DNA of 64,000 nt from Thermospira aquatica (GTDB taxonomy: Bacteria > Spirochaetota > Brevinematia > Brevinematales > Thermospiraceae): contig NZ_CP073355.1 of the NCBI RefSeq assembly GCF_023525255.1, positions 992,001 through 1,056,000 of the forward strand, written 5' to 3'. Of the stretch, positions 10,834-39,975 are shown one piece after another. Numbering within the stretch: position 1 is the stretch's first letter; each line of letters opens with the position of its first letter. The notes beneath the pieces were generated by a model. The model searched no databases. It was not told the origin of the DNA and saw only the letters and a list, made by a program, of their open reading frames with translations. The translations under genes and the position numbers were made by a program.

Positions 10834-12287
10834 CCCGTTGCGTCAAATAAAAAAGTACTCGAAATTCGAATCATTGCCTCATAAAAAAAAAGTACTCAAA
10901 AATTCCATACAGTTTCCTCCAAATTTTTGTTTTTTACATTCTTTTTCTTTTGAAGGCTGAAAAGTTTTCTCTGGCAAGCTGTAATTTTTTGTCTTAGGTG
11001 AAACAAATCGAGAGCCTTATAAAGCCTTGTTAGGCGTTCCTTTTTGTCACCTCACTTAAAGAGCTTTCTAAAAGCCGCTGGTAGGGAGTTTTAATATCAT
11101 CATGCTTCTTTTGCACCTTGCTTCCGATTCTCTTTTTCTCTGTCATTTTCATAACGGTTGAAAAAGTTGGCATAAAGCCTGAGATACGCATAGAGTCGGT
11201 TCAAGTAGTAGACTTCTTCCTCGGTATCGTAGCGGAAGTATCCAACATTCTGGCGGACTATGGAATAGTTTTCTGCTCAACGTAGCAGTTATCATTGGAA
11301 CGGGAGCTTCTCCCCTTGTAAATTTTATCTGGTGCTTCTCACACCAATCGCGTAGGGATGATTAATAAATTCAGCGCGGTATCAGAATCAATTCCCCGTA
11401 AATCAAAAGGAAGTCTTCTGGACTTTTTCTATGGCTTCTCTTACCCATTTTGAAGCTTTGTTTTGATTGCCACAAGCTGTAATCCAACCGCTCAAACATC
11501 CACCATATTTAATGTTTGAGCAAAGTCTCCCTGACTTTTCCTCCCTCATGGGCTACCAGATCAATCTCCATGAACCCAGGGCAATTTCATCCTCTTTGCT
11601 TACGTGCGTATAGCTATTTGTTGCTTTAATAGCGTTCCAGGTTTTGTGCCTTTTCGTCCTTTTATCTCAAAACTTTTTACGCTCATGTGTTTCAAAAGTC
11701 GGTCAATACTTGGAAGCCTTGCTATGGCGCAGAGTTTTTCATAACAATATGTGGAGACCGTGGAGATGTCCGTTTGCTAAGAGATTATCTAAAACTTCAT
11801 TTAAAATTGGCTTTAAACGTTTGCCACATGTAGTTTTCAATTTCCCAGACCTTTTTTAGAAGTTTTAGTTCCTCTTCGCCGAATTTTTTCTTTCTGCCAG
11901 GTCTTTTGCCCTTTTTGGCTATGTCGGCTTTAAGGTAATTTTTCTTGCCTACATAGATGGTTTTTCCGTGCTGCCTCAAGAGCCTGGCGGCATAGTTTCG
12001 ATTTTTTAGGCCTGTTATCCTCACAAAATAATCCAGTATCTCCTTTTTCTCCTTTTTGCTGGCTTTTTGATACTCTGCTTCGACAAGCTCAGCATATCAT
12101 TTCGCCGTTTCCCTGTAAATAGGTCTTTTTTCAGACCTCGTTAACCCAATTCCTGTTGGCGAGCCTGTCGAGCCACGGTTGGCGAGCTTGTCGAGCCATG
12201 AACTGGATTATTTTACACAAATTTAAAGTACTTTTTTATTTTGCAATAGCGTTCCCTTTTCGAGTACTTTTATTATGAAGCAATTCG
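10834..12287 (-). mobile_element. Insertion sequence copy 1 (degenerate)
   Basis: About 1454 bp. The ends are CCCGTTGCGTC on the left and, read inward, CGAATTGCTTC on the right. It is flanked by A runs (10828-10833 and AAAAA 12288-12292) that match the 5-bp target duplication seen elsewhere. The transposase reads on the minus strand but is shattered by many one-base contractions and some garbled stretches between about 11040 and 11760. It shares with copy 2 a 27-bp insertion carrying GAGCTTGTCGA and two units of the 23-bp repeat near its right end, so copies 1 and 2 are sister copies. Confidence 0.85.
10907..12110 (-). pseudogene. Transposase remnant, insertion sequence copy 1
   Basis: Collinear with the full transposase of copy 3 but with many frameshifts; the longest pieces are only about 60-75 residues. 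An in-frame TGA lies in the 27-bp insertion near 12080-12106. It cannot make a functional enzyme as sequenced. Confidence 0.8.
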
Positions 12288-12292: not shown

Positions 12293-13745
12293 CCCGTTGC
12301 GTCAAATAAAAAAGTACTCGAAATTCGAATCATTGCCTCATAAAAAAAAGTACTCAAAAATTCCATACAGTTTCCTCCAAATTTTTGTTTTTTACATTCT
12401 TTTTCTTTTGAAGGCTGAAAAGTTTTCTCTGGCAAGCTGTAATTTTTTGTCTTAGGTGAAACAAATCGAGAGCCTTATAAAGCCTTGTTAGGCGTTCCTT
12501 TTGTGCCTCACTTACATAAGAGCTTTCTAAAAGCCGCTGGTAGGGAGTTTTAATATCATCATGCTTCTTTTGCACCTTGCTTCCGATTCTCTTTTTCTCT
12601 GTCATTTTCATAACCGGTTGAAAAAAGTTGGCATAAAGCCTGAGATACGCATAGAGTCGGTTCAAGTAGTAGACTTCTTCCTCGGTATCGTAGCGGAAGT
12701 ATCCAACATTCTGGCGGACTATGGAATAGTTTTTCTGCTCAACGTAGCAGTTATCATTGGAACGGGAGCTTCTCCCCCTTGTAAATTTTATCTGGTGCTT
12801 CTCACACCAATCGCGTAGAGGATGATTAATAAATTCAGCACCGGTATCAGAATCAATTCCCCGTAAATCAAAAGGAAGTCTTCTTTGGACTTTTTCTATG
12901 GCTTCTCTTACCCATTTTGAAGCTTTGTTTTTGATTGCCACAAGCTCTGTCCAACCGCTCCAAACATCCACCATATTTAATGTTTGAGCAAAGTCTCCCC
13001 GGCTATTTCCTCCCTCATGGGCTACCAGATCAATCTCCATGAACCCAGGGCAATTTTCATCCCACTCTGCCCACGTGCGTATAGCTATTTGTTGCTTTAA
13101 TAGCGTTCCAGGTTTTGTGCCTTTTCGTCCTTTTATCTCAAGCTTTTTACGCTCATGTTTCAAAAGTCGGTCAATACTTGAAGCACTTATATGGCGCAAG
13201 TTTTCTATAGCCTGTGGAGAACCGTGGAGATGTCCGTTTGCTAAGAGATTATCTAAAACTTCATTTAAAATTGGCTTTAAACGTTTGCCACACATGTAGT
13301 TTTCAATTTCCCAGACCTTTTTTAGAAGTTTTAGTTCCTCTTCGCCGAATTTTTCTTTCTGCCAGGTCTTTTGCCCTTTTGGCTATGTCGGCTTTAAGGT
13401 AATTTTTCTTGCCTACATAGATGGTTTTCCGTGCTGCCTCAAGAGCCTGGCGGCATAGTTTCGATTTTTAGGCCTGTTATCCTCACAAAATAATCCAGTA
13501 TCTCCTTTTCTCCTTTTGCTGGCTTTTGATACTCTGCTTCGACAAGCTCAGCATATCATTTCGCCGTTTCCTGTAAATAGGTCTTTTTTCAGACCTCGTT
13601 AACCCAATTCCTGTTGGCGAGCCTGTCGAGCCACGGTTGGCGAGCTTGTCGAGCCATGAACTGGATTATTTTACACAAATTTAAAGTACTTTTTTATTTT
13701 GCAATAGCGTTCCCTTTTCGAGTACTTTTATTATGAAGCAATTCG
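12293..13745 (-). mobile_element. Insertion sequence copy 2
   Basis: About 1453 bp with the same ends as copy 1. The left two thirds are nearly clean and encode a 313-residue open frame. Between about 13350 and 13815 (crossing into copy 3) many homopolymers are one base short relative to copy 3. It shares the 27-bp insertion (about 13532-13558) and the two 23-bp units with copy 1. It is separated from copy 3 by AAAA (13746-13749), probably a contracted AAAAA. Confidence 0.85.
12354..13560 (-). pseudogene. Transposase, copy 2, N-terminal part frameshifted
   Basis: The open frame 12354-13295 covers the catalytic DDE core and C-terminus: EIDLVAHEGG (first Asp), GIDSDTGAEF (second Asp) and NDNCYVEQKN (Glu). 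The N-terminal helix-turn-helix part upstream of 13295 is collinear with copy 3 but broken by homopolymer contractions and by the TGA in the 27-bp insertion. If those contractions are consensus errors, the enzyme could still be near-complete. Confidence 0.75.
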
Positions 13746-13792
13746 AAAACCCGTTGCGTCAAATAAAAAGTACTCGAAATCGAATCATTGCC

Positions 13793-15253
13793 TCATAAAA
13801 AGTACTCAAAATTCCATACAGTTTCCTCCAAATTTTTGTTTTTTACATTCTTTTTCTTTTGAAGGCTGAAAAGTTTTCTCTGGCAAGCTGTAATTTTTTG
13901 TCTTAGGTGAAACAAATCGAGAGCCTTATAAAGCCTTGTTAGGCGTTCCTTTTGTGCCTCACTTACATAAGAGCTTTCTAAAAGCCGCTGGTAGGGAGTT
14001 TTAATATCATCATGCTTCTTTTGCACCTTGCTTCCGATTCTCTTTTTCTCTGTCATTTTCATAACCGGTTGAAAAAAGTTGGCATAAAGCCTGAGATACG
14101 CATAGAGTTGGTTCAAGAAGTATACTTCTTCGTCGGTATCGTAGCGGAAGTATCCAACATTCTGGCGGACTATGGAATAGTTTTTCTGCTCAACGTAGCA
14201 GTTATCATTGGAACGGGAGCTTCTCCCCCTTGTAAATTTTATCTGGTGCTTCTCACACCAATCACGCAGAGGATGATTAATAAATTCAGCACCGGTATCA
14301 GAATCAATTCCCCGTAAATCAAAAGGAAGTCTTCTTTGGACTTTTTCTATGGCTTCTCTTACCCATTTTGAAGCTTTGTTTTTGATTGCCACAAGTTCTG
14401 TCCAACCGCTCCAAACATCCACCATATTTAATGTTTGAGCAAAATCTCCCCGGCTATTTCCTCCCTCATGGGCTACCAGATCAATCTCCATGAACCCAGG
14501 GCAATTTTCATCCCACTCTGCCCACGTGCGTATAGCTATTTGTTGCTTTAATAGCGTTCCAGGTTTTGTGCCTTTTCGTCCTTTTATCTCAAGCTTTTTA
14601 CGCTCATGTTTCAAAAGTCGGTCAATACTTGAAGCACTTATATGGCGCAAGTTTTCTATAGCCTGTGGAGAACCGTGGAGATGTCCGTTTGCTAAGAGAT
14701 TATCTAAAACTTCATTGAGAATCGGCTTTAAACGTTTGCCACACATGTAGTTTTCAATTTCCCAGACCTTTTTTAGAAGTTTTAGTTCCTCTTCGCCGAA
14801 TTTTTTCTTTCTGCCAGGTCTTTTGCCCTTTTTGGCTATGTCGGCTTTAAGGTAATTTTTCTTGCCTACATAGATGGTTTTTCCGTGCTGCCTCAAGAGC
14901 CTGGCGGCATAGTTTCGGTTTTTTAAACCTGTTATCCTCACAAAATAATCCAGTATCTCCTTTTTCTCCTTTTTGCTGGCTTTTTGATATTGTTTTGCCG
15001 TTTCCCTGTAAATAGGTCTTTTTTCAGACCTCGTTAACCCAATTCCTGTTGGCGAGCCTGTCGAGCCACGGTTGGCGAGCCTGTCGAGCCACGGTTGGCG
15101 AGCCTGTCGAGCCACGGTTGGCGAGCCTGTCGAGCCACGGTTGGCGAGCTTGTCGAGCCACGGTTGGCGAGCTTGTCGAGCCACGGTTGGCGAGCTTGTC
15201 GAGCCACGGTTGGCGAGCTTGTCGAGCCACGGTTGGCGAGCTTGTCGAGCCAC
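13793..15253 (-). CDS. DDE integrase-core transposase (only near-intact copy)
   Basis: The open frame is 486 residues, but the first ~70-90 are translated 23-bp repeats (MARQARQPWLDKLANRG-type) from a GTG inside the array; the conserved protein starts about RPIYRETAKQYQ. Domains: an N-terminal helix-turn-helix region (TGLKNRNYAARLLRQHG), a basic linker (KKGKRPGRKKKF), a second helical region, then an rve/RNase-H-like catalytic core with Asp in EIDLVAHEGG, Asp in GIDSDTGAEF and Glu in NDNCYVEQKN, and a basic C-terminus. It looks like an unclassified (ISNCY or IS481-like) family; the assignment is open. The native ribosome site and start seen in copy 4 are replaced here by the repeats, so how it is translated is unclear. 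The last residues (EYFL) come from a shortened A run. Confidence 0.85.
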   Translation of the reverse strand: MARQARQPWLDKLANRGSTSSPTVARQARQPWLDKLANRGSTGSPTVARQARQPWLDRLANRGSTGSPTGIGLTRSEKRPIYRETAKQYQKASKKEKKEILDYFVRITGLKNRNYAARLLRQHGKTIYVGKKNYLKADIAKKGKRPGRKKKFGEEELKLLKKVWEIENYMCGKRLKPILNEVLDNLLANGHLHGSPQAIENLRHISASSIDRLLKHERKKLEIKGRKGTKPGTLLKQQIAIRTWAEWDENCPGFMEIDLVAHEGGNSRGDFAQTLNMVDVWSGWTELVAIKNKASKWVREAIEKVQRRLPFDLRGIDSDTGAEFINHPLRDWCEKHQIKFTRGRSSRSNDNCYVEQKNYSIVRQNVGYFRYDTDEEVYFLNQLYAYLRLYANFFQPVMKMTEKKRIGSKVQKKHDDIKTPYQRLLESSYVSEAQKERLTRLYKALDLFHLRQKITACQRKLFSLQKKKNVKNKNLEETVWNFEYFL

Positions 15254-15277
15254 GGTTGGCGAGCTTGTCGAGCCATG
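15048..15277. repeat. Ten tandem 23-bp repeats (VNTR) inside insertion sequence copy 3
   Basis: Ten units in exact register, each beginning GTTGGCGAGC and ending GTCGAGCCACG. Units 1-4 (15048-15139) have CCTG and units 5-10 (15140-15277) have CTTG at the same place; the last unit ends CATG. Copies 1 and 2 have just one unit of each type. All six reading frames are open through the array. The unit length is not a multiple of three, so unit number changes which frame joins the transposase. Confidence 0.95.
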
Positions 15278-36927: not shown

Positions 36928-37207
36928 ATCTTTCTCTCCCGGGAATTTTTTGTGCTTTTTGTTTTTTTGTGAGTGGACACAGGTTTTAAGCCCACAAAAT
37001 AGTATAAAGCAGAGAATAAATTTTTGCTTTTTTTAAAAAAAAGGATAAGAAAGAATTTTGAAAAATTTTTAAAAAATGTTTTTCCCTGCAAAAAGGGCGA
37101 CTTCTGGTGTGTTTATGAGCGGAGAAAGGGAGTTTCTCTCCTGCTTTTTCCAGGGTAGAGGGATACTCTCATAGGAAAGAAATTTGACGTTTTTTTGTTT
37201 CTTTGTA
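36928..37207. other. Intergenic region between the GT2 gene and the csoR operon
   Basis: About 280 bp, very AT-rich, with poly-A/T stretches around 37020-37080. No gene or RNA is recognised. It should hold the GT2 promoter, which could not be fixed, and the -35 of the csoR promoter. Confidence 0.5.
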
Positions 37208-37213
37208 TATACT
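37184..37213 (+). promoter_or_regulatory. Promoter of the csoR-copZ-copA operon
   Basis: TTGACG at 37184-37189, an 18-base spacer, TATACT at 37208-37213. Confidence 0.7.
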
Positions 37214-37244: not shown

Positions 37245-37535
37245 ATGGCGAGTTGTCATCAGGGGCCGCATCATTCAGAAGAGGTGAAGCGTGTGCTTCT
37301 TACGAGGTTGAAACGGATAGAGGGGCAGATCCGGGGGATATCCCGGATGATAGAAGAAGACCAGTATTGTGATGATATTCTCAACCAGATTACGGCGGTA
37401 CGGTCGGCTCTCGCAGGGGTCCAGGAAAAGCTTCTTATAGCCCATCTGCGATCCTGTGTTTCTGAACAGATAAGACAGGGACATGGTGAAGCTATTGATG
37501 AGGTTGCCCAAACTCTTCGTCGAATGCTCAAGTAG
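37245..37535 (+). CDS. csoR: Copper-sensing repressor CsoR
   Basis: 96 residues, all-helical CsoR/RcnR family. LLTRLKRIEGQIRGISRMIEED is the family signature. The Cu(I) ligands are all present: Cys in DQYCDDIL, and His and Cys in LIAHLRSCV, which separates it from FrmR and RcnR. The start is ATG 37245 with GGAGG 8 bases upstream; an ATG at 37241 is out of frame. It precedes copZ and copA and should repress all three in low copper. Confidence 0.9.
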   Translation: MASCHQGPHHSEEVKRVLLTRLKRIEGQIRGISRMIEEDQYCDDILNQITAVRSALAGVQEKLLIAHLRSCVSEQIRQGHGEAIDEVAQTLRRMLK

Positions 37536-37552: not shown

Positions 37553-37768
37553 ATGAAATCGTATGTGCTCAGAGTTAGCGGGATGAGTTGTCAGGGGTGT
37601 GTGAATACGGTAAAACGGACACTTCTTTCTCTCGAGGGAGTCAAAGAGGTTTCGGTGGATCTCGGGTCAGGAAGGGTAGACGTATTGTCGGAAGAAAGTG
37701 TGTCTGCTGAGAGGCTTGTTGAGACTGTCAATACAAAAACCCCTTATAAAGCAACACTCGAAGGATAA
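37553..37768 (+). CDS. copZ: Copper chaperone CopZ
   Basis: 71 residues, one heavy-metal-associated domain with the Cu(I) site MSCQGC. AAAGGAGG precedes the ATG. It would deliver Cu(I) to CopA and CsoR. Three bp separate it from copA. Confidence 0.92.
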   Translation: MKSYVLRVSGMSCQGCVNTVKRTLLSLEGVKEVSVDLGSGRVDVLSEESVSAERLVETVNTKTPYKATLEG

Positions 37769-37771
37769 ACC

Positions 37772-39975
37772 ATGGAAAAAAAGCAAATTTTTCATGTTTC
37801 TGGCATGAGTTGTACGTCGTGTGCGCTAGCTGTGGAGAAAGTAATTGCCTCTATTGAGGGTGTAAAAGAGGTTCGTGTGGATTTTGCTACGAGGAGAGCT
37901 CTTGTTGTTGGGGAGAATATTCCTTTTGAACGCGTGAAAAAAGTAGTTCAGGAGATTGGGTATGGTATTCGTGAGGATGAGTATAGCCAGGAAAATCTCA
38001 AACGGAGAATTCGTCAACTTCTCATAAGCTGGGTGGGTGTGGGGATTCTTCTGGTAACAATGCTGTGGCATGATAATATTTGGGCTTTTGTCGTTTCGCT
38101 TGTGGTGGGTTTTGTTACGGTGATTTTGAGTGGATGGGATGTTTTTCGGGCGGTGGGGAGTGCTTTTCGAAAGCGTGTGTTTACCATGGATGTGCTTATT
38201 GGGGTAGGGGTAGGAGCTTCGGTAATCACAGGTGTTTTTCACCTCCTTGATCATCGTTTTCCGGATTTTGTGATGGTCGGGGTGATGATTCTTGCGATTC
38301 ATCTCACAGGAACCTACCTTAAGGAGAAAACCACAAGGAGAAAACCACAGGGAAGGCAAGTGAGGCTATTGGGAGGCTTCTTGCCCTCGGGGCAAAAGAG
38401 GCGCATAGAGTCAGGGGAGACAGTGTCGAGGATGTTGATGTACGGCAGTTAATGGTGGACGATGTGGTGCTTGTGAAACCAGGAGAAAAGATACCTTCGG
38501 ATGGTATCATTGTTGAGGGGGAGAGTGCTGTTGATGAGTCGCTGGTAACAGGAGAGTCGCTTCCGGTAGAGAAACACGTGGGAGATAGTGTGATTGGTGG
38601 GACAGTGAATCGGGATGGGGTGCTTTTGGTGCGTATTACCAGGGTGGGGGAGACAACTTTTCTTGCGCAGGTGGTGAAGCTTGTTGAAGAGGCTCAGGCA
38701 AGTCGTGTGCCTATTCAGAAGCTTGCAGATAAGGTTACGGCGGTTTTTGTGCCGTTGGTTCTTCTTCTTTCTCTGGTGGCTTTTGGGGTCTGGTTTTTGT
38801 TTCCCCAGGTGATGAGAGGGTTTATCGAGGGTATTGTGGTCTGGCTTCCCTGGCATTTTCCCCATGGGAGACTGGAAATGGCCATGTTTGCTTCACTCGC
38901 TACCCTGGTTATTGCCTGTCCCTGTGCTCTGGGTCTGGCGACGCCAACGGCTCTGATGGTGGGGATGGGGCAGGCAGCCCTTGAAGGGATCCTGTTTCGC
39001 AGGGGAGAGACTCTGGAAAGATTAAAAGAGGGGAACATTTTTGTTTTTGACAAAACGGGAACCCTTACCAAAGGCAGTCCACGGGTGGTTGCCTTTCGGG
39101 GGGAGAGTTTGCTTGCTGATGTGGCACTCACTCTGGAATCTGTCTCTCATCATCCTCTGGCAAAGGCGATCTCGGCGTTTTTCTCCTCTCGGGGGGCTCG
39201 TACGCTTTTGGCAGAGAAGATTGTCTCTGTAAGTGGGCGAGGTATGAAGGGTGTGATTGAAGGGCAGGAGGCTTTTGGAGGGAGTTTGGCGTTTTTAGAG
39301 GCCTTTGGAGTCAATATTCCTCCTCAGTTAGAGCTTGAGACGTTTCTTGAGCAGGGCACAATGGTGGTGGGATTTGCTCTTGGGAAAAGATTTTTGGGAT
39401 ACGTGGTCCTTGCCGATGAGGTACGGGAGGACGCCTCTCTTCTCATCCGGCGTCTTTCTGCTGAGGGGATCCGAACGGTGCTTCTCTCAGGGGATCTGCT
39501 TTCTGTGGTGAATTCGCTTGCAAAAGAGGTTGGCGTGGATGAGGCGTATGGACGACTTTTGCCTGAGGAAAAGCTTGCTATGATCCGCCGTTTTCAAAAG
39601 GAGGGGAAGAAAGTGGTGATGGTAGGGGATGGGATCAACGATGCGCCTGCTTTAAGACAGGCTGATGTGGGGATAGCCCGTGGGACGGGAACGGATATCG
39701 CTCTCGAGGCAGGGGATGTTGTTCTCACAGGGCATTCGTTACTTCTCATTCTTCGGGCACGAGAGATTTCCCTGGCTACCTTCAGGACGATTCGAAGAAA
39801 CCTTTTCTGGGCGTTTGGGTATAATTTGCTTGCTCTTCCTCTTGCCCTGATGGGGGTGATGCATCCCGTCGTGGCAGAGGTCGCGATGGCACTGAGTTCT
39901 CTTTCGGTGGTGGGGAGTTCGCTGTGGTTGCGGTATAGACTTTTGAAGAGAAAAGAGAAGTCGCTCTTTTTCTGA
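37772..39975 (+). pseudogene. copA: Copper-exporting P-type ATPase CopA, frameshifted by a 14-bp tandem duplication
   Basis: Frame 1 (37772-38452) encodes an HMA domain with MSCTSC and the first four membrane helices to GTYLKEKT. Frame 2 gives the rest: the actuator domain with TGES, the CPC metal site in [29 protein letters not shown] and [10 protein letters not shown], ending at 39975. Between them AAGGAGAAAACCAC occurs twice in perfect tandem (38321-38334 and 38335-38348); deleting one copy restores a continuous reading [20 protein letters not shown]. The whole would be a normal Cu+-ATPase of about 730 residues. The first fragment ends in TAA that overlaps an in-frame ATG (TAATG at 38450), so a two-part product through reinitiation cannot be ruled out. 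A terminator follows. Confidence 0.88.
38321..38348. repeat. Perfect 14-bp tandem duplication inside copA
   Basis: AAGGAGAAAACCAC twice in a row. It adds 14 bases (frame +2) to copA. Confidence 0.97.

Follow-up and report, generated by a model that had tools for sequence, protein, structure and literature searches.

An exact 14-bp tandem duplication puts copA out of frame

In the assembly, the copA gene of a csoR-copZ-copA operon carries an exact 14-bp tandem duplication, and we consider it likely that a recent, spontaneous slippage event created this duplication, put the gene out of frame and left a null allele. The lesion looks like an ordinary, possibly reversible, pseudogenising mutation rather than a built-in switch. 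The three genes stand in one run within the window (the whole 64,000-nt stretch analysed), where the following features were recognised.

37184..37213, + strand: candidate sigma-70-like promoter ahead of csoR, TTGACG-18-TATACT (consensus match only, 10/12)
37245..37535, + strand: csoR, copper-sensing repressor with the Cys/His/Cys ligand pattern (YCDD...AHLRSC; PF02583, E=1.3e-29)
37553..37768, + strand: copZ, copper chaperone with an HMA domain and MSCQGC (PF00403, E=4e-15)
37772..38452, + strand: 5′ part of copA (ORF, 226 aa), comprising the HMA domain, the first four TM helices (predicted from the family) and 38 out-of-frame residues
38316..38353, + strand: imperfect repeat ACCTTAAGGA ... 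ACCACAGGGA, read from the sequence, with a putative seeding role
38321..38334, + strand: first copy of AAGGAGAAAACCAC, read directly from the sequence
38335..38348, + strand: second copy of AAGGAGAAAACCAC, read directly; its additional 14 bp are the frameshift
38349..38451, + strand: true-frame stretch of copA, 34 residues, translated in neither ORF (codon score; conservation in relatives)
38450..38454, + strand: TAATG, in which the TAA closing the shifted frame overlaps an in-frame ATG (sequence, ORF list)
38452..39975, + strand: 3′ part of copA (ORF, 507 aa), comprising most of the actuator domain (TGES) and M3-M6 with CPC, DKTGT, HP and GDGINDA (TIGR01511; motifs)

The two copies are adjacent and identical (zero mismatches), the sequence reading ...ACCTT AAGGAGAAAACCAC AAGGAGAAAACCAC AGGGAAGG..., and the period-14 identity extends one base beyond the two units, to 29 nt. 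The 14-mer has no other occurrence in the 2,515,453-bp genome, and perfect tandem repeats with a period of 10-60 were absent from all of 60 Markov-simulated 64-kb windows. The repeat is a real duplication, and chance is ruled out. Dropping one unit, which gives ACCTTAAGGAGAAAACCACAGGGA, lengthens the stop-free frame from 681 to 2190 nt, spanning the whole Cu+-ATPase. Both the exact duplication and the restoration of CopA by loss of one copy, as proposed in the initial annotation, are therefore borne out.

As assembled, the shifted frame terminates at the TAA at 38450-38452 and the 3′ ORF starts at the overlapping ATG at 38452, so that a P1B-1 Cu+-ATPase (CopA) is divided between frames of 226 and 507 aa instead of occupying a single uninterrupted one. 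Its motif set is complete: the HMA domain of the 5′ part carries MSCTSC, and TGES, the intramembrane CPC, DKTGT, HP and GDGINDA are all intact across the two frames. The 3′ part scored 456 bits against TIGR01511 (copper-translocating P-type ATPase; cut-off 397) and contains no lesion beyond the duplication. Downstream of the duplication, the codon score was -0.18 per codon in the shifted tail versus +0.20 in the true frame, and both same-genus genomes have an open, full-length CopA. Based on the TIGR01511 score, the intact motifs, the codon scores and the open CopAs of the same genus, the gene at 37772-39975 encodes, as judged from sequence, a Cu+-ATPase and carries just one lesion. It shares its gene order, its domains and every catalytic motif with CopA-type (P1B-1) csoR-copZ-copA operons, but differs from them in the break of its frame, which falls past M2 and ahead of the actuator domain.

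The upstream genes csoR and copZ, also described as intact in the initial annotation, are indeed both complete. The csoR product is 59% identical to a second CsoR of the genome. Sigma-70-like sites such as the one ahead of csoR are no more numerous in the region than in shuffled sequences.

Origin and effect of the lesion

We infer that the lesion arose by slippage, is recent and reversible, and abolished function. In the one-copy form, ACCACAGGGA follows ACCTTAAGGA at an offset of 14 bp and shares 7 of 10 bases with it (ACCnnAnGGA), and an ACC repeat was detected by the repeat finder adjoining this pair. Mispairing of the two sequences during replication would add exactly 14 bp and shift the frame of copA within the operon. 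Translation of this allele would yield a stub of 226 residues, the last 38 of them junk, and whatever was made by a restart would be devoid of M1-M2 and of the first part of the actuator domain. Like any short tandem duplication, the lesion could vanish again by slippage.

The copA genes of relatives are intact and do not contain the duplication. No CopA closer than 54% identity was found in 296 genomes of the phylum, and a scan of the genome collection with the N-terminal part of copA produced no match. It is thus the intact remainder of the gene alone, with the closest CopA being ~54% identical, that points to a recent event. In a phylogenetic tree, the CopAs of both copA genes in this genome (see below) fell among spirochaete CopAs; CopA1 sits on a long branch, and the tree leaves the branching order of this clade unsettled.

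An assembly or sequencing artefact, with the real chromosome carrying one copy, would account for a lesion that breaks an otherwise perfect gene. However, an exact 14-bp duplication outside a homopolymer is unusual as a sequencing error, as the initial annotation had also held, and the genome is a single contig with 99.81% completeness. The window, twenty 20-kb stretches spaced evenly along the genome and a further stretch of 18 kb (482 kb in total, ~19% of the genome) were surveyed for duplications and frame breaks. The break in copA was the clearest mid-gene frame break in this sample, and none of four other candidates was a clear mid-gene frameshift when read by eye. As few other frame breaks were present, the assembly does not appear to be full of frameshifts, and we regard an artefact as unlikely.

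Restart and frame correction

The initial annotation further proposed that ribosomes terminating at the TAA could restart at the overlapping ATG and thereby make a split pump. The TAATG overlap is present, but a working pump made of two fragments is not supported. The 34 residues found in neither fragment link M2 to the actuator domain and are well conserved in relatives, leaving the second product incomplete, and no Shine-Dalgarno sequence was seen ahead of the ATG at 38452. When frameshifts were simulated in long genes of the genome, 18% of them brought the first stop into overlap with an in-frame ATG, and 6% did so in the form TAATG or TGATG. At these chance rates, the geometry at 38450-38454 needs no special explanation, and it is highly improbable that the two fragments form a working ATPase.

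Full-length CopA could alternatively be obtained by ribosomal frameshifting or transcriptional slippage, for which the 43-codon overlap of the two frames would leave room. In E. coli, a chaperone is produced from copA through a -1 slippery site close to the metal-binding domains. The present gene is similar in having two overlapping frames in copA, whereas here the second frame comes from a duplication; no slippery site was seen, the E. coli site is located elsewhere in the gene, and the correction would have to be +1 (or -2) instead of -1. Inspection by eye revealed neither a prfB-like site nor a run of more than four A at the site. Although frameshifting in copA has been described for bacteria (PMC9548414), the chance that it corrects the frame here is very slight.

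Static mutation or switch

The initial annotation interpreted the duplication as one that can revert at high rate and so act as an on/off switch for copper export. In such a switch, a two-copy (off) and a one-copy (on) allele would coexist and slippage would toggle between them. Phase variation by tandem duplication would entail an exact extra unit that reopens the frame when lost, and such a unit was found. It would also entail a repeat conserved at this site in relatives, or several such loci in the genome; neither was found, the loci being sought in the 482-kb sample. The otherwise intact gene and the imperfect flanking repeats are also in keeping with a switch. There is precedent in the pneumococcus, where Waite et al. 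(2001, 2003) reportedly observed gene-inactivating, reverting tandem duplications in capsule genes (type 3 locus, cap8E, tts). The likeness lies in a short exact duplication within a gene that inactivates it and whose unit loss would restore it; as the pneumococcal duplications are said to revert, reversion of the copA lesion is plausible by analogy. In contrast to the high-frequency phase variation reported there, the present case, a copper ATPase of a spirochaete, is represented by a single static sequence.

Other points speak against a dedicated switch. A single allele is seen in the one assembly, two 14-bp copies are the minimum that a single accident gives, and the repeat is absent from the copA of relatives. 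Among the tandem duplications (period of at least 10) in the 482 kb surveyed, that in copA was the sole one that, once removed, gave a much longer open frame, and no other long gene was found to be broken by an out-of-frame duplication. Apart from one 23-bp family, this sample contained few other perfect tandem repeats with a period of at least 10. The second Cu-ATPase of the genome would, in addition, have to be irrelevant or switched off too. Coexisting alleles that toggle copper export are accordingly improbable, and this part of the initial annotation did not find support.

The second copper ATPase

The initial annotation had pointed out that a second intact copA would make the broken one a dead remnant. 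A second Cu-ATPase gene with an open frame of 790 aa is located ~143 kb from the first (L035:7943-10315), in the following region.

L035:4792-10315 (G000:C1 about 1170791-1176314): AT-rich, probably acquired copper island

The island encodes an HMA-DsbD-cupredoxin-like protein, the second csoR, a second copZ, a SHOCT protein and the second copA. Its G+C is 0.31-0.40, versus 0.45 in the window. A search for a multicopper oxidase gave no hit. About 2 kb downstream of the second copA, at L035:12197-13333, a Mutator-family transposase is split into open frames of 196 and 151 aa and is probably a broken IS256-like element. The low G+C, the gene company and the nearby transposase pieces suggest that the island, with the second copA, was probably acquired horizontally.

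The second gene is open but perhaps not intact in function. Its product reads DVMFQG in the actuator domain, with 14 residues missing in-frame between DVM and FQG. Among 113 other CopA-type sequences, this stretch was absent only from two contig-end fragments, and the solved CopA of A. fulgidus (3j09) has the 14 residues. To our knowledge, the actuator motif affected is universal in P-type ATPases; since the missing residues lie in it, the second CopA is probably impaired too.

Both copper ATPases in the assembly thus look damaged. That both Cu-ATPase genes of one finished genome are hit in the actuator domain suggests weak or relaxed selection for copper export in the strain or in its culture, perhaps owing to a sulfide-rich habitat or to laboratory medium. 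A more elaborate scenario, in which the copA duplication reversibly controls copper export while the acquired second ATPase is disabled, giving mixed populations of copper-sensitive and copper-tolerant cells, seems quite improbable to us. Read as a slippage mutation, copA illustrates neatly that one event may silence a metal-resistance gene and leave its repair one step away.

Tandem arrays and a transposase pair elsewhere in the window

A 23-bp unit (TGGCTCGACAAGCTCGCCAACCG and near copies) forms tandem arrays at positions 12155-12198, 13613-13656 and 15048-15275 of the window. Genome-wide, 159 copies of TGGCTCGACAAGCTCGCCAACCG were detected with at most 2 mismatches, distributed over many short arrays. 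In the window, the arrays flank two near-identical, tandem transposase-like genes ~1.46 kb apart (12354-15253), and the longer transposase-like reading frame begins inside an array. Pairs of arrays with equal spacing recur elsewhere in the genome (e.g., G000:C1 406528/407976), so the 23-bp arrays may be tied to the transposase-like element.
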